A DNA stretch of 20,456 bases from Chytriomyces cf. hyalinus JEL632 (lineage: Eukaryota; Chytridiomycota; Chytridiomycetes; Chytridiales; Chytriomycetaceae): contig JAIWWG010000192.1 of NCBI GenBank assembly GCA_025435555.1, positions 1 to 20,456 of the forward strand, read 5' to 3'. Below, one piece after another: positions 1,898 to 20,456 of the stretch. Numbering within the stretch: position 1 is the stretch's first letter; every line of letters starts with the position of its first letter. A program made the translations under genes and the position numbers. The notes under the pieces were generated by a model, which saw only the letters and a list, made by a program, of their open reading frames with translations, was not told where the DNA came from and did no database searches.

Positions 1898-4824
1898 ATG
1901 CCCAATTTGTTCTGTGATTCATCCCAATTTGTGCCCAACATGCATCAAAGTCAGCACAGATGTCCAAACTGCAACACGCCATTTGCTGGGAAACGCTGGG
2001 CAAGGAATCTGAACCATCATCTGCAGCGTTGCACAAATGAGTCGGAATCAGATGATGCTTGGAGTATGCATTCATGCAAGAGTACAAGCTCTGCTCAGCA
2101 AAGTTTTGACAGCCTTGCATTCAACCAAGAGTGCATCAATATGATTGCTGAGACTGAAGCAGGTAAAGGCTTTTTGACTGGGTTAGCAATTTACAAAATG
2201 GACTGACAGATCTGTTGCCAGCAGATTCCAATGATTGTCTCAGTGACAAAAGTGTCAGAGCAGAAGAACAATGCGCAATTGTGGCTGGACCAGATGAACA
2301 TCACAGCACAAGCGACAGCAACAGTATTGATCAGTCAGATAGAACTGACATGGAATTGTCAGACACTGATGATGGTTCTGATATGGACTCTGATGATGGT
2401 TCTGATATGGACTCTGATGATGCAGCTTCTGACTTTGGATCCAGCCATTTCTACCCATTTCCATCAAGAACACATGCTCTGCTATTCAGTCTGCTATTTG
2501 CTAAGCGTCGCCGCATCAGTATTACTCAAATGAAACTTCTCTGGGGAATATTTGAACTGCTGCAAGTCAAGTGCCCTTCTTTGAATGCAATTTTGAAGCT
2601 ACGCAAGAAGCTTTGCAAAGTGCAGCCCATTGAAAGGAAATCTGCATCAGGCATTCAAATCTTTGTCAGGCCTATTCCTGAGCTCATTGAATCTGCGTTT
2701 GCAACACCATCTATTGCAAAGGAAATCCGATATGGTCCACAGTTATCAACACATCCACAAGAAATTTTTGAGTCATTAGCATTTTCTGTGAGAGCGCCTT
2801 GCCTTTGGATGGACAACAATTCAACTCGATTTTACGCTGGGTGAGATCTTCCTTAAATGTTTTTAGTGATTTAGCTGATATCACTTTTAGAGATACTGTT
2901 GTAATGCCCAATTTTGAAGAAGGCATTATTAAGTGTTTTCCAAAACCTGGTATTGTGGCATTTGGGCAAGTTGCTGAGCATTTCCATTCTGTGTTGTTGC
3001 AAAACTTCACAACTACAGTTGAACTGCATCCAGGGGATGCAATGACACTTGTTCAAAGGGGCAATCTCAGTATTCGAGGTTTGTGTGCAAGCATTTATTT
3101 TGAAGATAGTAACTGAATTTGTTCAGCAAATGGCCGGAAAGTCATCAACTTTCCAGTCATCTGCAGCTCAGATGAAACTTCAGGAAACACAACCAAGCGC
3201 TACAACCACTTTGAAAACTTTTTCGTTATATTTCCATTGCTTCCGCACAAGTTTTATGGTCCTCGATATATCAACTTTGCTGCCACTACAAACACTGGAT
3301 CATGGTCAGATATTGCTGAGGTTGTCTTGCACGATTTGAGAGAAGGTAACATTAATCTGTATTTATTTTGACATTGCAGTACTGAATAAATCACCAGGCA
3401 GCCCTCTATCTCTTGGAATCAAAGTACTTGACTCAAGCACCGGAGAGGATGTGATTGTTGTTTCACAATTACTTGCAATGCTTGTGGATAATCCACGTGC
3501 AGCCCAAATATGCCATCAAGCTGGAGCACGAAGTGACTTCAACTGTCGAGTTTGCACTGCACCTATTGGAAGTCCATCCACTTGCATGCAACTTCATCCT
3601 TATCGATGGTTATATGAAACCAAGCAAGTACTGTCTCGAATGGCACAGATGAACAAAACACAATCAGAGTCTCTGAGAAAAGCAACTGGGATAACTGTTC
3701 CATCTGAGCACGCCAACATCTATCTCTCCCTCCCTGGTTTTTCACCTCATGCGCAAACTCCAGTTGAAATTCTCCATACACTGTTACTTGGAGTCATGAA
3801 ATACTTGGGGACAGAGTCCAAAGAAAAGCTGAAGTCAAGGTCTCTCAAACTCAGAGCTGCATCTCTATTTGCAATCATCTCAACCTATCAACACTGTCAT
3901 TTGTCATCAAAACAAGTGACTCGCTACATTGGAAGCATGAATGGAAAAGACTTCAAGGGCCTTGCACAAATAGGGCCATTATTCTTCCCTTGGCTTCAGC
4001 CAAATCTAACTTGGCTTTGGCTTGCTGGTGCAATTCTTACGAAACTGGCATATGATTCCAAGTATCCACACTTTGAGTTAAGGTACCGCCATCTCCAAAA
4101 GGCTACCATTGCAGTTCAGCGTCTGTTCCATGTTTCACTGCCATCAGCAAAAGACAAGCTCAAAGTCCATCTACTTTCTCATCTCCCTGATAATTTCCGG
4201 ATCTGGGGACCACTGTCTCTGTATGCTGTTGAAGTTCCAGAACAAATGAATGGAGATGTGCGCAAAGACATAGCAAATTCAAATCGGCATTCACCATCAA
4301 GAGATGTGGCATGGGCATTTGCAATTCGGGAAGGGACAGTATCATATTTACGAGGGGCATCAGGAGGAGGGCCTGGATTACTTGAACTTGGAGCAAATTC
4401 CATTATAGTCAAGCATTTGTTCCCTCCCATCAGGCCAGTTCCATCAAGAGCTCGCATTCAGATTGGCAGATTCTTCTTTTTTGACAACTGGGGCCGTATT
4501 GGAAAAGTCATTCAACATAACGAGCACACCAAAACTTGTCTAATGCAAGAATTAGAGCTGAACGGCCAGTTAACATCATGGAGATTACGTGCATGTAGTT
4601 TGCACAACAACTTCTATGTCCCTGTTGGCAATATCAATGACCAAGCAGATGTCAGTCACGACTGCTGGGAAGAGCAGTTTTTGTGCAGCTGGAGACAAGA
4701 TGGATCTATTGCACATTCAACTTTGAACACGTATTTTCTAAATCCCTTTCGCATGGAATGTCATCACACACTTGGAAGTGCCCAAACAGATGTGTTCCTT
4801 GACTTTTTACTCTCAAAAGCTTGA
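1898..4824 (+). CDS. Plavaka/KDZ-like transposase, 911 aa, N-terminal C2HC finger
   Basis: Five exons: 1898-2162, 2222-2840, 2891-3078, 3127-3345 and 3380-4824. Introns are 59, 50, 48 and 34 nt; phases agree over 2736 nt. Residues 22-45 form a zinc finger (C22, C25, H40 or H41, C45), as seen at the N-terminus of many fungal proteins of this family. Residues about 115-150 are acidic and include a 24-bp tandem duplication encoding DDGSDMDS twice. The core carries family-like blocks: DETSGNTTKRYNHFENFFV (exon 4), DNPRAAQICHQAG then CRVC (about 467-489), TPVEILHTLLLGVMKY (about 557-572) and PSRDVAWAFAIREG. These resemble the large transposase-like proteins that are abundant in Agaricomycetes and placed in Plavaka or Kyakuja-Dileera-Zisupton groups; that assignment is from memory. 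I could not identify the catalytic acidic residues with confidence. The 34-nt intron is unusually short. The frame is otherwise intact, so the protein could be functional. Confidence 0.8.
2368..2421 (+). repeat. 24-bp tandem duplication in the transposase acidic region
   Basis: Two copies of a 24-bp unit (2368-2391 and 2392-2415) encode DDGSDMDS twice, followed by a partial third GATGAT. It gives an acidic, probably disordered linker between the zinc finger and the conserved core. Confidence 0.85.
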
Positions 4825-7663: not shown

Positions 7664-8245
7664 TTAATGTGATGGGCCGTTGATTTTTGGGTACGTCTCG
7701 TGAGAAATAGCTGTTTCTTGAACTATGCTGCGTTGCGCCAGCTGGGCAGGTACTTCAGTTCTTCCAGAGATCCAGAGTTCATATTTATCGGCCTTGCGCA
7801 CTGGATGTTTGACTGTAGGCGAGATAAAAGCAGTTGGTAACTTTCAAAGTCAAAGCATCCTTGCGTTTTTGTTTTGACTATGAACTGCGAACGGTTCTGA
7901 AAAGCCTATTCTTTGTCTGGCACAGTATCATGACCTTGCAGCTTGCCATCATAATCAGATGAATTTCGACGGATGTCAGCAGCCAGTATAATTGGCAAGC
8001 TTGTTAAAAACGGGTGATTTCCTGTTGCGAACGATGATTCCAGTTCCAAGTCCCCCTGAAAATGCTCACGGAGGGTGTTAAATGGCAGTTTTACAACACC
8101 ACGGATTGTAGGCGGTGGTGCTGTGATCTCAAGGACGCTGTAAAATAATATTAGTGTGCTGTTGCTGATCTTGGTCATGCCCGCCTTCAAAGACACTTGC
8201 GTCAGTTTTGACATTAAGGCGTTTGAGATACGCCTTGTGTACCAT
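7664..8245 (-). CDS. Hypothetical small spliced protein, about 121-134 aa
   Basis: Proposed exons on the minus strand: 8245-8232 (ATG then VHKA), 8137 to about 7924, and about 7840-7664, ending in TAA. The first intron (8138-8231, 94 nt) has a GTATCT donor, a CTAAT branch site and a TTTACAG acceptor. It joins MVHKA to VLEITAPPPTIRGVVKLPFN. The last exon reads KHPVRKADKYELWISGRTEV and ends ETYPKINGPSH. The second intron is uncertain: 7841-7923 (GTGCCA..GAAAG) and 7813-7934 (GTCATG..CCTACAG) both preserve the frame, and a stronger GTGAGC donor at 8069 is a third option. I do not recognise the family. Support is the protein-like composition, frame continuity and location in an otherwise long gap. 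Extra 5' exons are possible. Confidence 0.42.
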
Positions 8246-8649
8246 TCGTTGTTGCTTGCTTGGTTGCGAATGCTAGCTGGAAGCGGAGGTGGAGTTTGGT
8301 GATAATGGATGGAAGATTTGGTTGGTGTTTTTGGAACAGAAAATTTCGTTCGTGCAAAGTGGTCCCCCAAACTCGACTCGACCGCAACCAACGAACAGAC
8401 CCCTCTCCTTGTCTGAGCGTGGAACCCCAGACGCAGAAAAGCAGAGAGCGTACATATACAGAAGAAGGAAGCGGCTGCGGGGAATCGAAAGCCTCTGAGA
8501 CGCCTGAGAGAAAGAGAGAGAAAGAAGACGAAACCGCGTGCGGGAACATCTCAACTCAGCAACTTTAGTGGGTTATTTATTTAACGCTCGGCCCTGAGTG
8601 GCGCCTGTGCGCTAATCTACTTCTCCCCCTCCTGCAGATAAACATCGAA
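8246..8649. promoter_or_regulatory. Divergent promoter region and MED15 5' UTR
   Basis: This 404-bp stretch separates the start codons of the minus-strand hypothetical gene and MED15. It contains a GA-rich block (about 8495-8530) and a likely 5'-UTR intron of MED15 at 8568-8637 (GTGGGT donor, GCTAATC branch site, CTCCTGCAG acceptor, 70 nt). Splicing leaves 12 nt before the MED15 ATG. The frame upstream of the acceptor carries stops, so the first exon is probably non-coding. Confidence 0.45.
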
Positions 8650-9229
8650 ATGGGTGAGGATCAGGGTCAGAATATAAACATGGGCATGGGCATTGCGGTG
8701 GGCATGAACATGGGAATGGGCATGAACATGGGCGTCAACATGAGCGGACTCAATGGCTTCAACCAAGGCGGTGGCGCTGGTGGAGTGTTGAATACCGGGC
8801 CGAATGGAGGCGGTCTCGGGCACTTCCAGGATCCTGTCGCAGGCCATCAGGCGTTATCGCAGCAAGTCAACCAGATGAACCAGCTACGACAAATGAACTT
8901 GCTGAGGCAGCAACAGGCGGCCCTCATCATGGCCAACGGGTCGGCACAGGCTTCGGCTAATAATACCCTGAACAACACTTTCAACTCACCGATGCAGCAG
9001 AGCAATGGTGGGATTAACATGAGTATGCTCGGACAATGTGCGTATATCCTGTCTTGTCTTGTTGCATCTGTACCTTGCTCGGCACCTAACGTCCGTTATT
9101 TCAGTGCCTTCAGGAATGAATAATCCCATGCTGATGAGTAATGGCGCTCTCAATAGCGGGATTCAAAACATGAGTAACCAGCAGCTGATGCAGGCCCGCT
9201 TCAGTCAGCAACAGCAACAGCAACAGCAA

Positions 9230-9263
<34 letters not shown>

Positions 9264-9920
9264 TGCTCCAACAGCAGCAACTCATGCAACAATTTCAAAT
9301 GCAGCAGCAATCTGCCGTGGCCGTACCAGGAACACCGGGCGCGCACATAAATCCCGCTAATGGGGCGCTGAATCTTGGCATGTCCACAATGAACCCATCG
9401 ATGCAACAACAAATGCAAAACGCAGACAGAGCATCTCACGCAGAGCGAAAAACAGTCATTCAAAACTTGTACGTTGTTTTTGCCGGCTTTTTATTCCGTC
9501 TTTTTTTTCGCTTTTTCTTTTGTTCTCGCCCCAATGCGTGACTCAAAATGCTCTTCTCTTTTCTCGACAGAATGGCGCAGCTGAAGGAGATTGTTGCGAA
9601 TCCCTCTAATCCAGACGAAGACCTCAAAATTTACCAGATTGCACTCAATTTTGAACGATCCGCTTACAACGAGACAAGCAATAAGGTGGGTGCCACTCGA
9701 TTTTAACTTTACTTTTTTAACTAATCATGATGACTTGTCGCACTTCCCAGGCGGACTACTTGAACAGAATCACAACGCAGCTGGACTCTCTTCGCAACCG
9801 CTGTAAGTACAATTTGTCGTTTTGTCACTCGCTGTTTTCGAATCTGAATATTGGCTGACCTCGATATCCTTCCAGCTCAACAACAGCAGCAGCAGCAACA
9901 GCAGCAGCACCACCACCAGC

Positions 9921-9951
<31 letters not shown>

Positions 9952-11266
9952 GCAGCAGCAACAACAACAAGCGCAGCAGCAGCAACAACAACCACAGCAG
10001 CAACAACAACAACCACAACAACAGCAGCAAGGGAACCCGAGCGGCCAAGATGGAATCGCGCAACAACAATCGATAAACATGAGTGGCCCCGGCACCAACA
10101 CCGGCAACAATAATAATAGTATTGCGGTTGCGCCCCAAATTCCAGCATCCAACAAGCCTGGTGGAGCGGGGACTCCTCAGGCCTCTGAGGGCCCATCGAT
10201 GAATTCATCTATTCCGGCAATGACCGGGACTACTGCTGCTCTTCGCAACAATGGTAATCCATCCATGATGGCCATGCAAACTGGAAGTCCGGCAAACAGT
10301 GGAGCTGGTGTTCCAGGGAATATGTCTCCGCAAGTTCATCAAGCTTTGTTGATGAACCAACAAGCGGCCATTAAAGCGATGCAACAACAGCACATGCAAC
10401 AGCGCCAGCTTCTTCACATGCAACAGATGCAAAACCAGGCAGCTGGAGGTGGTCAACAGCAGCAACAAAGCGCTGGTATGGGCGGTGCGTTCGACAACCC
10501 GAGTCCTCCCAACCCTCCTCATCAGCAACAACAGCCGCAGAGTGCATCTTTGTCTCAATCGTTGTCTCCTACTGCGAAAGATGTTGCAGCCAGCTCCGGG
10601 GCCGGTGATGATGCTGGTCGATCATTTGCGTTACAAGCCGAAATGCGGGATCGTCAGAACAGTCTCAGCCAGCAATTAAACACTGGTGCGATGGTTGGAA
10701 TGCGACCTCCAATGATGAATCAGCCAGGAAGTGCATCAGCGGCAGGTCAACCAAACCAGGCGGCGGCTGGTGGTGCTCCAGTTCAACTTCCTGCAGCCTT
10801 ATCCACAGCGATCCAAACTTTTCACACAAAACAATTTCAATTCCAACGCCTTGCATCTTCAGGCCAGATAAATCCTCAGCAGTTTCAGCAGATTCAGATG
10901 CAGTTGAATCAAGAGCAAATGTTCTTGAATAGTCAGCTGCAACAAGTTCGTTTGATTCAGCAACAACAACAACAACAGCAGAATGGAATGCTTGCTGGAA
11001 GTATGGGGTCGCCTTTCGCAGGATCCGCTATGGGTCGAGCGGGTTCTCTGGTTGGCACACCCATGCCCGCTGCGAGTGTTGCCGGAACGCCGTTGCCCAT
11101 GGCTGCATCTTCCCCACCACATGCACAGACGGGTATGGCGGCGGATGCACAAATGTCGCCAGTTCTTTTTAATACTGGTGGTGCCCAAAAGCTCTCGCCG
11201 CCTGTGCAGCAGCAACAACAACACCAGCAACAGCCGCAACATCTACTACAACAACAACAGCAGCAG

Positions 11267-11313
<47 letters not shown>

Positions 11314-13234
11314 GCTAAAATTGGAGGTTGTCAGTGCAAAGGATGAAGATTCACCCTCTGAATCGCAAGGTTCCCAAGAGAATGACTCGCAACAGCAGCA
11401 ACAACAACCAGACGCCACGTCGGCAGCCGAGTCCTCAACCGAACAATTGAACGAGCCCGCGGGTCCTAATGGTGGAGAGGTGTCTGGAAACGATGGGTCG
11501 CTGGATGCCTCTGCAGATGCAAGAAACACGTCTCCGTCTGGGGATGCAAACGGATCGGCCAAAACTATTCATCTGACACAAATATCTGGCATGTCTGAAG
11601 AGGACATCAGTGAAGTGAAAGACAAGGTGAGGTTCAGTTTTTTGTTTTGTTTTGTTGTGGTGCTTGGTCGAAGCTAATACCACTTCCTGCCATCAGATGA
11701 ACCAAATGTACCCAATGTTTCGGTCAATGGAATTTCTAACTGGAATTCTTCTCTCTGTGAATGGTGAAAGTGAAGCTGAAAAAGTCCGAAAATTGAACGG
11801 AATGGTTTGAACTTGTCTTTTGCTCTTGTTTCTCGAAAGACTGCGAACTAACAAACCCACTTCTTTCTTGAATGCAAACAGAAGGAAATGATGCAAAAGC
11901 AGTACGAGGGCCTTCCAAGCAACATCTTTTACCTGCGTCCCGAGACCGTCCGTCTGCTTCAAGATAACCTTGTAAAGTTTTTCAACTATGCCGACGATAT
12001 CTTGAAAACGCAGAACCAATCATCTGGTGGCGTTTCTGGTGGGCAAGGGCCGTCTGGAATGCAATTGCAGTTGGCGGCAGTGGGTGGTGGCCCCGATGGT
12101 GGCATGGGAGGCAACGTGGGGGCGACACCCAATGGTGAAAACGGAAACCAAGCTGGAGGCGCCATGAGAAGTTCGTTGTCGCTTTCGCCAAATAATCCCT
12201 CGAATAATTTGGCGGGGGCTGGCGGGGTCCAGAACTCGACTTTTTTGCAAATGCAGGCACAACATCTTTCTCAGCAGCAAAATGCGCAATTACAGCAACA
12301 GCAACAGCAACAAAATGCGCAGCTGCAGCAGCAACAACAGCAGCATCTGCTGCGTCTTCAGCATCAAGTGCAGCTGCAGCATCAACAACAGCAACAAGTG
12401 CAACCACTCTCAGCCGGCCAAGTAGGTTCTTTAAATATGGGTGCTCTCAATTCAGCCTCAACACCGCAAAATCCGGAACAAATGGTGGGAACACCGAATC
12501 CTGTTATCCCATCGACACCAAAGGCATCCCCCCGAATTGTACAAGGCATGCAGCCCCAACAAGTTATGCCTGTACGGCCTCAAAACACGAATCCTGGAGC
12601 ACCCGGGTTTGTAAATCCTCAGATGCCCAATGGTATGATGACGGGTATGCCCGTTATGAATGGCGCGGCTGGCATCAATGGTATTCAAGGAATGCCTGGG
12701 ATTCTGGGTCAGCCACAATTAAATGCGCAACAACAACTCATGGCGCAAGAGCAGCAACGTTTGATGAGTGAGCAGCAACGTAATCCGATGATTATCACCC
12801 ACCCGAATCAATTGGCGGCTTTCCAGAGGATGGCGTTAAATGGGAACGTGCAAGCTCAGCTAGTGCTTCAACGGCATAATATGATGGTCCAGCAGCAACA
12901 TCAGCTACAAATTCAGCAGCAACATCAGCAACAACAGCAGCAAAATGCGTTGATGAATCGACAAATGTCGACTGCATCGTCGTCTGGATCAGTGGACCTA
13001 CCCGCAACGCCCTCCGCCATGTCAAACTCTGCGATGATGGCCCCGGCATCTGTCGGCACACCTCTTGCGACTGCTGTGGCTGAAGCATCACCGTCGCGTG
13101 GTGGAAAACCCGCGAAAGCTGCAAAGCCGAGAAAGGCTTCTGCGGCATCCAAAAAAGCGGAGCAGACTCGACAAAAGAAGGAAGCAGAAGCGGCGGAGAA
13201 GGCGGAAGCAGTGGCTGCGCTTCAACAACAACAA

Positions 13235-13270
<36 letters not shown>

Positions 13271-14519
13271 GAGCAACAGCAGCAGTTGCATCAGCAGCAA
13301 ATGCAGTTCCAGCAACAGCAATTTCATCAGCAACAACACCAACAGGCACAACCACAACAACCGCATCAACAACCGCCACCACTGCACCAACAGCACCAAC
13401 AACAGCAGTTGCATCAGCACATGTTCCGCATGAATCAACCTTCAGAGATGATGCTGCAGTCACAAGTCCAACCCACGCAAAATGATCAGCAACAGGATCA
13501 ACAGCCCCAACAGCAACAAAGTGGGGGCTTACCAAGTGCGGGAATCGATGCAAGCAGTAGCTTCTGGGACACTTCGATGACTGCCTCTAATGAAGCGTTG
13601 AATCAAAATCAAATCGAAGAGTCCTCGGATCAAAGTGAGTAATCATTTATAATATAAATGTGGACTTGCCCTCATCCTTTCCTCTCTAGCATTTGGAGAC
13701 TTCTTTGACTTGTCACCGCCTGCATCGCCATCCAAATCCGAATCCAGTAAAAAACGAAGTCGAGATGATGAGGAACCTTCTGGCAGCAGTGGCAATGAAT
13801 TCTTTGATGACCAAGATATCGAAGTCGATCGCAATGTTCGAGCCAAAACTGGAAACTTCCCGACTCCTGATGGAACCATTAAAGATCTGCACGGAAATCA
13901 ACAGCAACACCGATCAACAGAGCAACCTCAGGCAGTGCCCAGTGCCACAGACCCCTCTGCCGACTTTCTTGCGGATTACCGAGACAGTTCGGAAGTTAAG
14001 GTTGGCGGGTCGTCTTCATCAACTGCTGGTGTTAGCCTGGATGATGAGCTGGCATCTATTTCTGCATCATTCGGGTTTCAGTTTGAGAGGCATTTGTTGG
14101 CTGCAAATCACATCATGGTGATGGCAACTTTTGCAGACACACGAATAGCGTTCAAGATCACATCGCTAGAACAATACCAGAAATTGCCCACTCCAGCATA
14201 TCTGGGTCTCTCTGGCTTTAATGAGTCTGAAAACGGCGGCGATGCCGATTCAGATTACTTTATCACTGCTCTTGAATCAGCCGACATCCATTCAGAAGAC
14301 AGACACAATTTGGCAGGGATAATCAGTGCGCTGCAAGTTGGATCAATGGGGTCTAAACTGCGAATTTCGCATGTTGCTGAGGCATGTTCTGGCGTAATTA
14401 ACAATGATATGTCTGGCGCCGTAGCGGGTATCAGCGGAGGGAGCGCAGTCGATGATTTTTTAGACTTTTCGGGTGTCGGCGATGATTTTAATTCCCTGAG
14501 TAATGACTTTTTCCAGTAG
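8650..14519 (+). CDS. MED15: Mediator complex subunit 15 (Med15/Gal11), KIX domain, 1786 aa
   Basis: Eight exons: 8650-9037, 9105-9468, 9571-9685, 9751-9802, 9876-11626, 11697-11804, 11882-13634 and 13690-14519. All seven introns are GT..AG, 55-102 nt, and the 5361-nt frame is continuous. Residues 1-235 are Met/Gly/Asn/Gln-rich (GMNMGMGMNMG repeats, then 19 Q). Residues about 236-307 form a KIX domain split by three introns, with AERKTVIQNLMAQLKEIV, LKIYQIALNFERSAYNETSN and DYLNRITTQLDSLRN. Long Q-rich regions follow, interrupted by PAALSTAIQTFHTKQFQFQR, EEDISEVKDKMNQMYPMF and GLPSNIFYLRPETVRLLQDN. The C-terminal exon holds FGDFFDLSPPASPSK and LDDELASISASFGFQFERHL, similar in kind to fungal Med15 C-termini. 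Med15 is a tail-module Mediator subunit that receives transcriptional activators in the nucleus through KIX and Q-rich segments. Yeast Gal11 has KIX at its very N-terminus, so the 235-residue leader here is notable. The assignment rests mainly on KIX plus architecture. Confidence 0.83.
9206..9262 (+). repeat. CAG/CAA repeat, 19 glutamines (MED15 exon 2)
   Basis: Uninterrupted Q codons with mixed CAG and CAA, directly upstream of the KIX-coding segment. Mixed codon use lowers slippage compared with pure CAG. Confidence 0.95.
9878..10030 (+). repeat. CAA/CAG repeat, about 51 codons (MED15 exon 5)
   Basis: It starts one codon after the exon boundary that follows KIX. It is almost all Q, with three H codons, one A and two P. 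The reverse strand reads as leucine- or cysteine-rich frames, which are shadows. Confidence 0.95.
11207..11314 (+). repeat. CAG/CAA repeat, about 36 codons (MED15 exon 5)
   Basis: Mostly Q with H, P and LL interruptions near its start; the last 21 codons or so are pure Q. It precedes a Ser/Glu/Asp-rich stretch. Confidence 0.95.
13223..13267 (+). repeat. CAA/CAG repeat, 15 glutamines (MED15 exon 7)
   Basis: It follows a basic Ala/Lys/Glu-rich helix-like segment (KKAEQTRQKKEAEAAEKAEA) and leads into a long Q/H-rich region to about 13520. The basic segment may be a nuclear-localisation or coiled-coil element. Confidence 0.95.
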
Positions 14520-14853
14520 TGCTGGACATATATTTCCCGATCTCTGTCGCACCATTCATTTTTTTGGACGGGAACCTGGCTCAAGTTTTTGGTCTCTATG
14601 CAACCGAAGTTGTTTTTTTTTTTATTTCTGTTCTTTTTTTTTTTATCACCCACTCTCCGCACCCAGTAAATGCTTCTTTTTTTCTGTCTACCTTTTTATC
14701 CTTTGCAAGGCTTTCTCGTCTTTCCAGCCCTCCTTACTATATTTGTTTAGTCACTCTTCCCTCCAAGCAGTTGTTGTCCCCATCCTTTCTTTTCGCAGTA
14801 GTGTGTACATAAAAGCCGATTAAACAGAAGAGTAAGGCCTTGTAGCTCATTTT
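14520..14853. other. Convergent intergenic region, T-rich
   Basis: It lies between the MED15 stop and the receptor stop on the opposite strand. Several T runs occur (14558-14565, 14610-14620, 14634-14644, 14676-14682). No canonical AATAAA is seen on the plus strand; CATAAAA at about 14808 is the nearest. No coding frame is credible. Confidence 0.5.
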
Positions 14854-17800
14854 CTAGTGAAAGCTTTTGACTGAATGAGGGACGCTTCTGTTTCCGGCCG
14901 TAATTGGATTGAGCGACTTTGACGGGAGATTCCCGCTGCTGGTGCCCTTGTCGGTCTCAACGAACCGGGCAGCATCAGGGTCCATCACGCAAACGTACAG
15001 CTTGACTGAGTACAGTAAAACAACCGTCAGCAAGGCTGGCACAAGGATTGCAATGGCCCGAAGAATGAAGGCAATGTTGGGATCCCGGATCGAGAACTCG
15101 ACAAGCGCGTTTAGCAGCGCGCTGAAAAGAAACCAATTGTATGCAGTGAATCCCAGAAACTGCCAAGAAAAGAGTTTCTTTGGTTGAATAGTGGGAGAGG
15201 GGTTGGTTATTGAAAAGCACGTTACTTTTGATTCGTTGAACACGGACGGAACATTGCGAATCTGAAAGGCCAAGAACGACGTAAAGAGGATAATAACCAT
15301 GCGAAGCACAGTCAGTGCGAGCCCAAACCCGGTGGCAATATTGCATCTATCTGTGACGGCCATCTCGAAGGAGATATCGTCCACCGGCTCAGGGCTGTTT
15401 ATGGTGAACCAAGCCGCAAGAAACGCGGCCATCACTGCACATCCCACAAACACCCATCCCGTCAAAATATTGTCATTGTATTTGCTGGCCAAGTTTACTT
15501 TTTGCTTTTGAGAGCGTTTCTGGTCAAACAAGACTTGAATGCGAACTGCCTTCACGCACAGCGAGCCGAAGATGATGCTGAATCCGATATTGTCCAGAGC
15601 GACGCTGATTTGGCAGTGGTGGGTGAAGGGTGACATCTGGACAACGATCGAGAAGAGACTTAAGAAGACGCCAAGCAGCGTTGCTGCGAGGAAGCGGATA
15701 CTGTTGGACCGGATCAGCTTCAGCCGCCTGTGCTTTGCCAGAAGGGTCAAGTTAGACAGTGTGAACAGGATCACGGCCACTGCTGTGAACACGATTCCGT
15801 ATCTCGTTGCTTGGGACACGTTTCGGACGGGCACGCAAATGGAACTGGGGACAAACAAGCGCTCGGTCACGGGATTACACACCGCAATCATCACGTTGAA
15901 CTTTTGCCACGATGAACCGGGCGGAAGATCCAGCGTGGCCGTGAACGCAGATACCTGCAAAACAAATGGTCCCGCGTCACGGATGCGAAGTTCGCTAAAA
16001 CGAACGTTGTTGGCCTTGTCGTCCAGAATAGCTTTCGTCGTTTCTCCGAGGATTTTGGCACCTCGCGATACTTCGGAGACAGTCACAATCACGGGCTGGT
16101 AGTAGCTGACGGCCACCTGATTTCCAAACATGTCGCGCGCTTCAACGAAAAAGTCTGGAACTGCCGCAGCAAAGTTGACGACCGAGTTTTCCAAGCTGGC
16201 CTGGTTTTGAACGAATACTCCAGATGCTCTGCCCGAGAAGGCAACTTTGGGTAGCATGCTCATGGTTCCAGCCTTAAGCATGACCGCAGCAACGTCGGAA
16301 TGATAAACAAATACCCTTCCTTCCACGTTGACAAGTTGCTCTGGAACTGTAAAAAGATTTTTGTGGAGAGGGCTCATGATGGCTGCAAATGAACCAAACT
16401 TGGAAGTGTTGTTCCGAGCGATTACAAGTCCAGTTATCTGGATTTCGGCGAGAGAGTCGGTAAATATGGCACCCCCGTAGGAGGTACCTCCAGTAGCATG
16501 ATTGTTACTTATGGTGACTGAGGCGTTGAGGTGGACTTTGCTTTGAGTGATTGCATAGATGGCACCACCGTGTTGAGACGCAGTGTTGCCGTCGATCACC
16601 GTTCCAGTCCCAAAGTACAGCGCTTCTTTACTACCGCATCTAAATGCGCCACCAAACGCGCCAGTGTTGTTGAGTATCATTGCGTTCATTGTGTAAAGAG
16701 CGCCCTGGGCCCCGCTCACACCTTCGTAGGCCCCACCACCTGCACTTTCATCTACTGCTGTGCAACTACATCGAAGCAAGTTAGTGCCGATGTGGTTTCA
16801 ACTCTAATTTCACTGCCACTTACTTTATGATTCTTGAGTTGTGAAGAGTCACCTGTCCGCCTTGGTTTGCAATGGCAGCGCCAGACGCGCCAACCGCATT
16901 TCTAATCTCAGAGTCTTCATCCAACAGTATAAACGAGTCCCCTAACGCAAGGAGAGCTCCACCCGCTCCCAAAGCAACCGAACCCAAAATCCGCGAGTTG
17001 TGAAGCTCAATGCGAGAGTTGCCCTGGGTCACGGCGGTGCCGCCAAATCCACCTGTGGAACAATGCAGCAGAGTACAATTGGTGCATATGGTTGTACATT
17101 CGCCGTAGCTGTAGAAGCATCCACCTTGGTCCGTCGAGTAAACATCCTTAAACGCCAAGTTGGTACCGTTGAACACGCTCTCATGGTTTAAAAAGATGGC
17201 ACCGCCCGCCACAGCCGACGCGCTTCGAAACGCAATGTTGCTTGCCATAAGGCGTGATGCTCCGTCGACCATCACGCATCCAGCCCATCTTGCTGTGTTG
17301 TTCACGCACGATCCGCCCGTCCAAGTAAGCAAAGAAGACGCGGATACAACGAAACCGCCTCCAACAGATGCGGACATTGAGTTTTGGGTGGTGCAGTTTT
17401 TGCAAGTGACAGTGGAAGAGTACTGAATAATCATATCGCCACCGCCGCGCGAAGATGCGGCAGTGGCTTTGTTTCCGTCAAAAAAGGCATTTGAAATGGA
17501 CAGTACGGAGCCTGGTTGGATAGTGATTTAGTTTTGACAGAGCACGCTGCGTTTTTTTTTTTAAAATAGCCAGACTCACGGTCGTTGATGCCAATCGCGC
17601 CACCATCTGGCGCGCTGTTGTTGATGAACCTGACATTCTCCAACACAGCCACACTCCGAGTAAACCTCAGATTGCCGCCTACCGAGTCTGCCTCGCCAAC
17701 AGCGTCTCGGAAAGTGACATTCGACAATGTAACCTGGGCTCCAGCATCGAAAATCCAAACGGGGCATGCAATGAGCGTGCAGTCCGAGAAAGCAAACACG

Positions 17801-18020
17801 GCTCCAGCTGGGAACTCCACGGGTTTAAAGGTTGAGTCGCATCGTAGGGTCCCATACGGACCGCAAGTAATAGTGGTCTGGCCCACAACTTGAGGAATTG
17901 AATGACTCAGCAGGAAAATAAAGATCTGGCAACAGATGGATCAGGCCTTGGGTCCCTGTGCCGCCATTACCTGCTGGTTCTGTTCAGACTTACAGGTAGA
18001 ATCCAACAGCAGGCCTTCAT
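14854..18020 (-). CDS. Beta-helix (Pmp-like) ectodomain fused to class C GPCR 7TM domain, 990 aa
   Basis: Four exons on the minus strand: 18020-17994, 17925-17580, 17511-16824 and 16765-14854. Introns are 68, 68 and 58 nt (GTAAGT, GTGAGT, GTAAGT donors); phases agree over 2973 nt. The tiny first exon encodes MKACCWILP and splices to IFIFLLSHSIPQVVGQ, making a signal peptide. Residues about 25-500 are repeats of the chlamydial Pmp kind, with GGAI motifs and N-rich turns (GGAIGINDRSVLSISN, GGAIYAITQSKVHLN, YGGAIFTDSLAEIQITG), predicted as a parallel beta-helix. Residues 500-670 form a linker. Seven hydrophobic segments lie near 674-697, 708-730, 742-765, 787-809, 830-855, 887-910 and 918-943. 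Cysteines at about 739 (before TM3) and 828 (before TM5) match the conserved class C disulfide, and GSLCVKAVRIQVLF after TM3 fits 7tm_3. The cytoplasmic tail is about 45 residues. It is probably a surface receptor; ligand and G protein are unknown. No Venus-flytrap domain is present. Confidence 0.85.
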
Positions 18021-18588
18021 ATCAATGACAGATCGCGAAGTTTTCAAAGGATTTACAAAACCACGTCTGCCTCGCGAAAAAATTCCTTGAGGTAGGAGTG
18101 CATGATGTGACGATCATTAAGAAATATGGTTCTTGTTCTTCTCTGGTCCGGTCAATGCTGGCGCTTGCAACTGATTCCAATGCACTACCATAAACAATAA
18201 TCTTTATAGTCCTTTCAACTCCCAGCACCCAAAGTCCGTGTCTTCTCAGCGAAATGTCACTTGGCAGCAATTGAGGCGTTACGACAAATACGCTCCTGGA
18301 ATCATAAAAATAAGCCCTGGAACAGGCGTTGTACTGTCCAAGTGATCTCCAATCCAGCCGCACCACCACAACAACCATCAGAAGCATATCCGCCTACTTT
18401 ACACACTCTCTCCTCGTCCCATAAAAACAATCGCGAAAATGGAAGCGCGTTTACGCCGGCGGGTTCTCGGGCGGGACTGACTTTACTTTGGATGCCAAAT
18501 AATTGCCTGTCTCGATTGTAAATTGTTTCAATCTCAAACAACCACCCACCTTCGCCCACCACCCACCCAGTCTCTGAACCTCGCAAGA
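18021..18588. promoter_or_regulatory. Divergent promoter region between the receptor and SPT subunit genes
   Basis: A 568-bp gap between divergent start codons. It contains pyrimidine/CA-rich tracts near 18360-18420 and 18535-18575 but no clear TATA box. On the minus strand an open frame with an ATG runs from 18387 to 18022 (121 codons) and stops two bases before the receptor ATG. It has no recognised domain and could be a chance frame, a leader ORF or a small gene. I do not call it. Confidence 0.4.
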
Positions 18589-18925
18589 ATGAAGACCAAC
18601 AGCCTCAGCAAATGGATCAGCCTCAAAATCTACCAGTACGAGCTGACTTTTGGCCTGTACATGCTGGAGCCATGGGAGAAAATCAGTTACGACCACCCCT
18701 CCTTTCCCCTCTTCTGTCCCCACCTGCCTCACTCTCACTTGAACCCTGCGTGGTTGCTTTGCTGACTGACACTTCTGTCTCGCTCTCCCCCCAAACACAG
18801 TCATCAACACCGTCTTTGTGCTGTTCTTTGGATTCTTCCTCTGCCGGGGTATCACTCTGATCCCAGACTTCACTTCATACCTGCTTGAGAAGGGCCGCTA
18901 CTACGTATCCATGGACAGCATGTGA
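18589..18925 (+). CDS. Small subunit of serine palmitoyltransferase (ssSPT/SPTSS-like), 73 aa
   Basis: Two exons: 18589-18685 and 18801-18925, with a 115-nt intron (GTTACG..ACACAG) that keeps the frame (222 nt including TGA). Exon 1 encodes SLKIYQYELTFGLYMLEPWE. The YQY...LYMLEPWE block is the signature of the ssSPT family (human SPTSSA/B have YQY.L..ALYMLEPWER). Exon 2 gives a hydrophobic membrane helix, INTVFVLFFGFFLC, and a short tail ending SMDSM. Length fits the family (about 70-80 aa). These ER membrane peptides bind the LCB1-LCB2 catalytic heterodimer, raise its activity and influence acyl-CoA choice in the first step of sphingolipid synthesis. The donor is not canonical GTRAGT, but it is the first GT in the right phase and restores the motif spacing. 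The gene faces away from the receptor gene and converges on the CLU gene. Confidence 0.85.
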
Positions 18926-18931
18926 TGTGCA

Positions 18932-18964
18932 GCACACACATAGCACACACATAACACACACAGC
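18932..18964. repeat. CA-rich tandem repeat, three 11-bp units
   Basis: GCACACACATA occurs twice and is followed by a diverged third unit, just after the SPT-subunit stop codon, in its 3' UTR. Confidence 0.8.
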
Positions 18965-19153
18965 GGATAAAGCGACTTATTTCTTTTCAGTCAGAGTACT
19001 CTTTACAAAACAAAACATGGGCGGCAAAAGGTCGAAAATAAAAAAACTGGCAGACACTTTGATCTTATTCTTTTTACGCGAGTATATATATACCCTTTGC
19101 GCAATGTTTTTTTTAACTCCCCTCATCATTCAGAAAGGCGTCTCCCGCATTTT

Positions 19154-20456
19154 TCAGTTCTTGCCCTTCTTGTTGCCCTTCTTGGCCCCCTTGGAAGAAC
19201 CCCCTTCAATAAATTTAACAAGCTCATCGATGGGCAAATGTCCCTTGCTTGGTACAACGGGCTCGACAGGCCCGGCAGCGAGAGCCGCCGATGCTGCAGA
19301 GTCGGCTCTGCTCTGTTTGGCGGCGGCCTTTGACAGTGGCGTTTGCTGTCCATTCTTTGATTTCAATTTGGAAGCAGAGACGGGCTTCTTTGGCAACGAT
19401 GCAGTGGCTGGTTTAGGGGCAGCCGCCTGTGCGGCTGGGTTTGATGCTTTGTTGCTTGAAGCAGCTTCAGCGGCCTGCGTCAATCCACATCAATTTACCA
19501 TCGCAAAACACAACCGCCAAGATAAAACACTCACATCCATTTCAATTTTCCTCCTCAGCATAACAAGCAGCTGCTCAGCTTCCTGAACATTCTTTTGTGA
19601 CACTTCGTCCTCCTCAGTGCTCTTTGACTTGGCGTAGGTAAGCAGAATTTCTTGCACTTCCAAAGCCTTGACAAAGTCACCAGACTGGATCAAACTGTTA
19701 AAGTAGAGTTCATGCGCCCGAATCGTTTGCTCATGTTCCCGGCCGAGGAGAATATCGTAGGTTTCAACTGCACGGGCAAGGAACTTGACACCAGTTTCTG
19801 AATCCACCTTGCTCTCATTCAAGAGCATCGCAACTTGTGCCTATATTCGAGTGTGTGTATGTAGGTTGGATTAGGACTAACGAGGGGTTGCGTAAGCTCG
19901 CAAGCACGTACATCTCCGGCGGCAAGTTCCGGGTGGCGCGCCTCAGCGCAATGCATTTTTAAGAGTTTCATGGCATGGTGCATGTACTTGAAACCAACAA
20001 GCGTGTTTCCAGACAGGCACTCAAAGTAACCAAGGTTGAGCTTTTTTTTTTTTAGTAAAAAGGCGTGATTTTAGGGAGAAAAAAAACACTTTGACCAAAT
20101 CAGCAAACTCACATATTGTTGGAGAGTTTCTGGGTCATCAAACCATTCAAACGCTCCGTAATCAACAATGCCCGTCGCTGGTAAATCTTGCATAGCTCGT
20201 GATCCTGAGTTTCATAGTGATGCACGGCAAGCTGTCTTTGAATCTTGGCGGCATCCGCATGAACAGGTCCAAACACTTGCTCATACACGTTCAAAGCTTC
20301 AGAAAGAAATTCAAGGCCGACTTTTTGGTCCCCCTTCCTGAGCGTAAACAGTGCATGCTCATGCAACTCGTCTCCAAAACTGCAGCCAGGCTCAGCGTAT
20401 TTGACAATTGGGTACAAGTTCAGCACATCGGCCACGGCGAAAGCTGGAGTCTTGGA
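19154..20456 (-). CDS. CLU1: CLU/TIF31 family protein, C-terminal TPR region (5' truncated, one apparent frameshift)
   Basis: Four exons on the minus strand: 20456-20113 (continues beyond the window), 20040-19912, 19840-19535 and 19474-19154. Introns are 72, 71 and 60 nt. The first exon reads ADVLNLYPIVKYAEPGCSF and then TPR-like repeats (KVGLEFLSEALNVYEQVFG, HELCKIYQRRALLITERLNG). The next exons give LNLGYFECLSGNTLVGFKYM, FLARAVETYDILLGREHEQT and DFVKALEVQEILLTY. The tail is Ala/Lys/Ser-rich with HLPIDELVKFIEGG and a lysine-rich end. The order (DV.NLYP, TPRs, IDEL..FI tail) matches clustered-mitochondria (Clu/TIF31) proteins, cytosolic proteins needed for normal mitochondrial distribution and reported to bind mRNAs for mitochondrial proteins. 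Near 20139-20145 the frame breaks: upstream is ITERLNG in frame 0, and the conserved continuation DDPETLQQY then LNLGYF is in another frame, as if one base were missing. The annotation assumes this is an error or a recent mutation. Confidence 0.82.

Follow-up and report, generated by a model that had tools for sequence, protein, structure and literature searches.

A class C receptor gene with a predicted beta-helix ectodomain in a likely zoosporic fungus

We describe a minus-strand gene (14854-18020) that is predicted to encode a class C (glutamate-family) G protein-coupled receptor with an ectodomain of beta-helix type. The gene lies in a window of 20,456 nucleotides, which is the whole of contig C103. 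Removal of four introns joins five exons into a protein of 968 residues, in which a probable signal peptide is followed by a run of coils, a linker, and a seven-helix (7TM) membrane domain. This domain order and the outer coordinates hold as they were given in a preliminary description of the same DNA. In our favored reading, to which we assign a probability of about one half, this is an intact-looking class C receptor in which the beta-helix takes the place of the Venus-flytrap domain, senses an extended ligand, and signals via a G protein.

The membrane domain and the ectodomain

The HMM search that the preliminary description had proposed places the membrane part in class C, as that description did. 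Pfam 7tm_3 matches residues 670-917 (15010-15819, minus strand, interrupted by intron 4) at 113.6 bits (1.6e-32, positions 3-248 of 251), far over the cut-off of 33.5, and the match is stronger in the corrected gene model. The membrane part is a class C 7TM domain. In phmmer searches it matched mGlu2 and GABA-B receptor subunit 2 (50.9 and 50.0 bits), with which it shares class C motifs. These motifs are K..RI at the end of TM3 and FNE(A/S)KF in ICL3; a third class C motif, PK.Y in TM7, is kept in part. KAVRI at the end of TM3 aligns with KTYRI of mGlu2, and SVKLY in TM7 stands opposite APKLY, with K and Y retained and P not. C738 and C828 align with the mGlu2 cysteines at the top of TM3 and in ECL2; together with KAVRI, these had been named as class C features from the letters alone, and the alignment bears them out. 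Hydropathy of the uncorrected 990-residue model gave six membrane peaks above 1.4, not seven, with TM6 below the threshold.

A Venus-flytrap ectodomain is usual, though not universal, among class C receptors. GABA-B receptor subunit 2 has a Venus-flytrap, and mGlu2 has both a Venus-flytrap and a nine-cysteine domain; neither domain matches here. ANF_receptor, the Venus-flytrap family, is absent from the protein (Pfam, E<=0.1) and from the vicinity of the locus, and the nine-cysteine family NCD3G had no Pfam match in the protein. NCD3G is reported missing from non-metazoan class C members in the available text of two surveys (PMC12716839, PMC3251606).

At the N terminus, residues 5-23 are hydrophobic and resemble a signal peptide, in line with the preliminary description, and probably form one. 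Thirteen coils of 24-31 residues follow at residues 117-478 (16393-17604, minus strand, broken by introns 2 and 3), each with a GG-type anchor. The anchors are spaced by 31, 28, 27, 24, 27, 27, 27, 27, 29, 28, 28, and 31 residues, with the degenerate ones at residues 203 and 335 placed by eye. Within residues 25-480, GGA[IVLFY] occurs seven times, against a mean of 0.27 in shuffled sequences, none of which reached seven in 5000 trials. Looser GG motifs, with overlaps allowed, occur 13 times in the same residues (shuffle mean, 1.89; 0 of 5000 reached this count). Self-similarity peaks at offsets of 26 and 27 residues (z of 5.5 and 5.1) and again, as an echo, at 53-54.

Family profiles point in the same direction. 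With residues 1-688 as query, TIGR01376 POMP_repeat scored 16.1 bits (cut-off, 15; E of 0.007). Pfam Chlam_PMP reached 14.4 bits for the whole protein, under its cut-off of 20.6; when the genome was scanned, a single coil reached 20.9 bits. Thus, of the GGAI-type beta-helix repeats described earlier, the repeats themselves stand far above chance and pass the POMP_repeat cut-off, but the family support is modest and no fold was confidently modeled. The strong repeat pattern leads us to predict a right-handed beta-helix. Coils of GGA(I/L) type are common to this protein and the chlamydial Pmp proteins, which differ in that the present gene is eukaryotic, with introns, and shows no autotransporter barrel. 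A Pmp autotransporter was rejected as a candidate, since 7tm_3 occupies the C-terminal part and none of the Pfam barrel families matched in the protein.

The preliminary description had also called for structure prediction, and neither of two single-sequence AlphaFold models was confident. The model of a 235-residue frame around exon 3 had a mean pLDDT of 32.7 and was unusable, as was that of a 647-residue frame in which intron 4 is read as coding (mean pLDDT, 37.7). The latter places strands first and then seven helices of more than 20 residues, which fits the domain order and carries no weight at this pLDDT. Foldseek of the 647-residue model against the PDB gave 39 matches at E<=10 and none at E<=0.001. 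By phmmer, the ectodomain matched two cytochrome c entries only in the PDB (E of 1.1 and 1.3). A 27-position profile built from the 13 coils gave 10 PDB matches at E<=10, the best with an E of 0.15 over 12 positions. This best match and three more were to the luminal domain of synaptic vesicle glycoprotein 2C, presumably a right-handed beta-helix of another, pentapeptide-like type, and were discounted at these E-values.

Between the coils and the membrane, the linker (residues 557-627; 15946-16158, minus strand) appears Ig-like or filamin-like by eye and had no Pfam family match. A stalk with two cysteines, C650 and C664, connects it to TM1. A search of bacterial and archaeal genomes with a 303-residue piece containing the last coils, linker, and stalk gave 28 pattern matches, none of which was confirmed.

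What the receptor may sense

A beta-helix rises 0.48 nm per coil, and a stiff, secreted one of about 13 coils would project about 6 nm from the plasma membrane. Its face may bind an extended ligand, such as a polysaccharide, glycoprotein, or solid surface, instead of a small molecule in a cleft. Binding would be relayed through the Ig-like-looking linker to the 7TM domain, which, plausibly dimeric like other class C receptors, would activate a heterotrimeric G protein. The receptor would probably report contact with a substrate or with its breakdown products. Pfam found no enzyme family at E<=0.1 in the 968-residue protein, suggesting that the ectodomain is binding rather than catalytic. Polysaccharide or surface sensing by zoospores, first proposed in the preliminary description, is a putative function.

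Several observations together make this the best explanation: the 7tm_3 score, the gap-free alignment with mGlu2 and the class C motifs conserved in it, the presence of coils and 7TM in a single frame, the GGA periodicity, the POMP_repeat match, and the lack of an enzyme family match. To these we add the 96 G-alpha exon matches in the genome and the receptors with this layout from gut fungi that degrade plant fibre, receptors which their describers consider putative carbohydrate binders (PMC5168858). The low-pLDDT models, the lack of a solved-structure match for the ectodomain, and the altered TM7 motif count against it.

It is possible, if on the unlikely side, that the beta-helix is instead an adhesion or cell-recognition module that reads contact with the organism's own kind or with other organisms and not with a polysaccharide substrate. 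Pmp-type repeats, seen here by POMP_repeat, are best known from surface adhesins. Residues 25-480 also hold 11 N-glycosylation sequons (shuffle mean, 5.95; 110 of 5000 shuffles reach 11), an excess that fits a cell-surface protein, although it may merely reflect asparagine-rich turns. The failure of Pfam to find a GAIN domain in the protein argues against such a module. A contact receptor could also be imagined whose beta-helix rests lengthwise on a solid polymer or on another cell and which signals via a G protein. This would be a fungal counterpart of the adhesion receptors, built on a glutamate-receptor 7TM and perhaps a trigger for zoospore settlement; we offer it as a speculative and rather improbable proposal.

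Alternatively, the beta-helix may act as a passive stalk or shield, with a small molecule bound in the 7TM domain or the linker. Class C 7TM domains contain an allosteric pocket of their own, and we could name no conserved ligand site in the repeats. However, class C receptors with large ectodomains sense mainly through them, and 13 regular coils would make a costly spacer. We therefore consider a passive role unlikely and prefer a beta-helix that senses an extended ligand.

The gene model

All exons and introns lie on the minus strand. Exon 1 (17994-18020) carries the start codon and residues 1-9, with which the probable signal peptide begins, and exon 2 (17580-17925) carries the remainder of that peptide, the N-terminal stretch, and the beginning of the first GGAI coil. 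They are separated by intron 1 (17926-17993; 68 nt, GTAAGT..CCAG). Intron 2 (17512-17579; 68 nt, GTGAGT..CCAG) leads to exon 3 (16824-17511), which encodes coils of the beta-helix, and intron 3 (16766-16823; 58 nt, GTAAGT..GTAG), with a branch-like CTAAC site inside, leads to exon 4 (15226-16765). Exon 4 encodes the final coils, the linker, the two-cysteine stalk, TM1 to TM5, and ICL3. Intron 4 (15160-15225; 66 nt, GTAACG..GGCAG) is in-frame and separates FNESK from FLGFTAY, and exon 5 (14854-15159) encodes TM6, TM7, a short C-terminal tail, and the stop. The three introns named in the preliminary description have GT..AG ends, and splicing them yields exactly the 990 residues it gave, but it overlooked the fourth.

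The intron 4 stretch has no stop and a length divisible by three. Read as coding, it encodes 22 residues unlike class C receptors, placed between FNESK and FLGFTAYNW. With these residues retained, 7tm_3 matches at 100.5 bits (1.6e-28) over positions 3-206 of 251; with them removed, the match lengthens to the near-complete one given above, and the mGlu2 alignment runs gap-free across the junction (FNESKFLGFT against FNEAKFIGFT). As a control, we used an HMM of 16 paralogous 7TMs to score 42 variants of the 990-residue model, each of which had one in-frame GTR..AG stretch of 48-90 nt removed from the last exon. Removal of 15160-15225 ranked at the top with 49.4 bits, a modest gain over the next candidate (46.3) and over no removal (45.8). 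The best PDB match was 29.3 bits for the 990-residue model and 50.9 bits for the corrected 288-residue 7TM piece; because the two queries differ in length, this comparison is supportive but not a clean one. The 968-residue model is the better one because the 7tm_3 match is lengthened and the mGlu2 alignment is restored without a gap, and we treat 15160-15225 as a predicted intron.

That the same 66 nt are instead a coding insertion in ICL3, with the 990-residue model correct, seems very unlikely, and we rejected it. The stretch does keep the frame without a stop, its donor GTAACG is weaker than those of the other three introns, and it has no branch-site-like motif, a feature that intron 2 lacks as well. 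Against an insertion, removal gives back the 7tm_3 coverage and the mGlu2 alignment, it was the best of the 42 tested, yet by only 3.6 bits over no removal, and 66 nt fits the sizes of the other introns (58-68 nt). An in-frame intron within a 7TM domain can lengthen such gene models with no stop codon as a warning.

The fusion of coils and 7TM is not a splicing artefact, because the last coils, the linker, and the 7TM domain lie in one unbroken open frame of 647 residues (14854-16797, minus strand). GGA anchors at residues 364, 392, 420, and 451 share this frame with the 7TM domain, with no stop between them. The claim of a single gene is thereby upheld as far as DNA can answer it. That the model joins two neighboring genes, one for a secreted beta-helix protein and one for a separate class C 7TM protein, is highly improbable and largely refuted: the introns are predicted from sequence alone, but the shared frame holds four coils and the 7TM domain, as does the same 647-residue frame in a second copy on contig C165, which is near-identical and so not independent.

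The genome, its receptors, and related systems

The assembly comprises 37.8 Mb in 242 contigs and most likely represents a flagellated, zoosporic fungus. Radial-spoke searches gave 12 matches in this genome and none in 14 control genomes. Chitin-synthase-family searches gave 67, a weaker indication since the same search was positive in 4 of 14 prokaryote controls. Anaerobic gut fungal genomes are very A+T-rich, and the G+C content of the window (0.42-0.52) speaks against such a fungus. Window positions 7896-20456 copy C165:138500-151060 at 99.98% identity, with 0 mismatches and 2 gap openings. The gene therefore occurs twice in the assembly, and C103 is probably an alternative haplotype or allele, or an assembly duplicate.

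Elsewhere in the window, a 2,658-base stretch (2167-4824, plus strand) has 33 matches across the genome, counting the window itself, and 30 of these are full length at 100% identity (rounded). The repeat reaches 5738 or beyond, with 559 bases at 99.8% next to the C165 copy, and two of its frames had no Pfam match; it looks like a very recently multiplied mobile element. Long glutamine-rich frames at 9848-14519 (plus strand), three of which were searched without a Pfam match at E<=0.01, might at a guess belong to a transcriptional coactivator. A frame at 18590-18765 (plus strand) matches the serine palmitoyltransferase small-subunit family (PF11779, 1.3e-13, positions 1-26 of 54), with the remainder of that gene probably beyond an intron. 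A tetratricopeptide-repeat frame (TPR_12, 3.1e-7) at 20109-20456 (minus strand) leaves the contig end.

In the genome, 56 7tm_3 matches group into 51 loci, including both copies of the present gene. Of the 51, 25 have a same-strand ANF_receptor match no more than 4 kb upstream, and the window gene and its copy have none; the contrast with Venus-flytrap receptors drawn in the preliminary description thus holds inside this genome. SBP_bac_8 was found upstream of two loci, over the cut-off on C100 and at 26.0 bits (cut-off, 27) or, in another search, 28.1 bits on C112, and PBP_like_2 upstream of one, on C205. An ectodomain could be assigned for 30 class C loci, 25 of them with a flytrap-type match. 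The other 21, with the gene and its copy set aside, have no assigned family, in part since diverged exons escape a six-frame search that does not model introns; L023, for example, has no ANF call and its near twin L024 has one. On contig C90, a Kelch beta-propeller frame (L039:2538-3620, minus strand; PF24681, 2.6e-35) lies just upstream of a same-strand 7tm_3 match of 37.3 bits with two stops inside, perhaps giving one of these 21 a Kelch ectodomain; this is either a propeller-ectodomain class C receptor or two genes. The best 7tm_3 match of the genome (L013, contig C126; 112.6 bits) has two upstream frames that were tested without a recognized family.

Searched against the whole genome at E<=1, the ectodomain found only itself and its copy. 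Pfam Beta_helix had no match in the genome, and all four Chlam_PMP matches fall within this gene and its copy. We also scanned for clusters of at least three GG[AGS][IVLF] within 300 residues at the window, L001, and L013-L039 (29 of the 49 other 7tm_3 loci). Apart from the window and its copy, L014, none of these stretches showed a cluster, with some loci covered by just 2-3 kb upstream. Further beta-helix receptors, or beta-helix genes with diverged coils, are possible in this genome.

At E<=0.001, the 7TM domain has five further matches in the genome, which share 22-27% identity with it. A tree of 27 class C 7TMs puts the window receptor in a loose group of 8, the other group of 19 having support of 98/97. 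Its branch is long (2.27) and isolated, with weakly placed nearest neighbors, and we name no sister. The sequences were stitched by HMM coordinates and may include wrong pieces, such as the last fragment of L017; L033 and L039, with stitched 7TMs under 170 residues, were omitted. ANF matches accompany nine members of the group of 19 and three of the window receptor's seven companions (L016, L018, and L019), with no split between flytrap and non-flytrap receptors. Since the group of 8 is mixed in ectodomain type, the tree is silent on when the beta-helix was acquired. The G-alpha exon matches come from many contigs and cluster locally on C100, C161, C171, and C220, indicating a large G-alpha family beside the receptor expansion.

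The layout itself is already known, although the preliminary description implied its novelty. Seppala et al. (2016; PMC5168858) reported 107 class C receptors from three anaerobic gut fungi (51, 24, and 32 per species). A pectin lyase fold is present in about 30%, at times together with parallel beta-helix repeats and, in a few of them, with an EGF-like domain; almost half have a type II solute-binding domain and, in the available text, none has ANF. Compared by description, receptors of Neocallimastix, Anaeromyces, and Piromyces have the same layout, a long beta-helix-type N terminus followed by a class C 7TM. Both repertoires also place bacterial-type solute-binding domains on other receptors (two or three loci here). 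They differ in that the layout here is one gene in two copies, in a genome where ANF is found at 25 of 51 loci. What is new is probably a member in a non-gut zoosporic fungus.

Krishnan et al. (2012; PMC3251606) described an enlarged class C repertoire with swapped ectodomains in Chytridiomycota and Blastocladiomycota, as seen here. The fungal ectodomains listed in its available text are ANF, BMP, LysR_substrate, PBP_like_2, OpuAC, and SBP_bac_1, with no beta-helix named. Glutamate-family receptors are enriched in the same two phyla according to Liu et al. (2025; PMC12842992), and those of filastereans and holomycotans appear more N-terminally diverse than animal ones in a choanoflagellate survey (PMC12716839), in whose main text, as available, the terms pectin and beta-helix are absent. 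A social-amoeba survey has PbH1 among its abbreviations (PMC10445921). With regard to function, Mucoromycotina class C receptors have been proposed as putative trisporic-acid receptors (PMC5705715), and in Caecomyces churrovis, genes for class C receptors go up on Avicel and xylan when a methanogen is present as partner (PMC8665504), which we count in favor of our preferred reading. A 2026 review states that the fungal glutamate class needs experimental validation (PMC13308352). We found no further paper on this layout in the open-licence literature on chytrid or fungal class C receptors with beta-helix, pectin lyase, or POMP; protein databases may hold such models already.

In the present small genome, a layout otherwise reported from the large repertoires of gut fungi thus appears to be represented by one gene alone. 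This one beta-helix gene can be compared with many flytrap paralogues for what such an ectodomain may sense.
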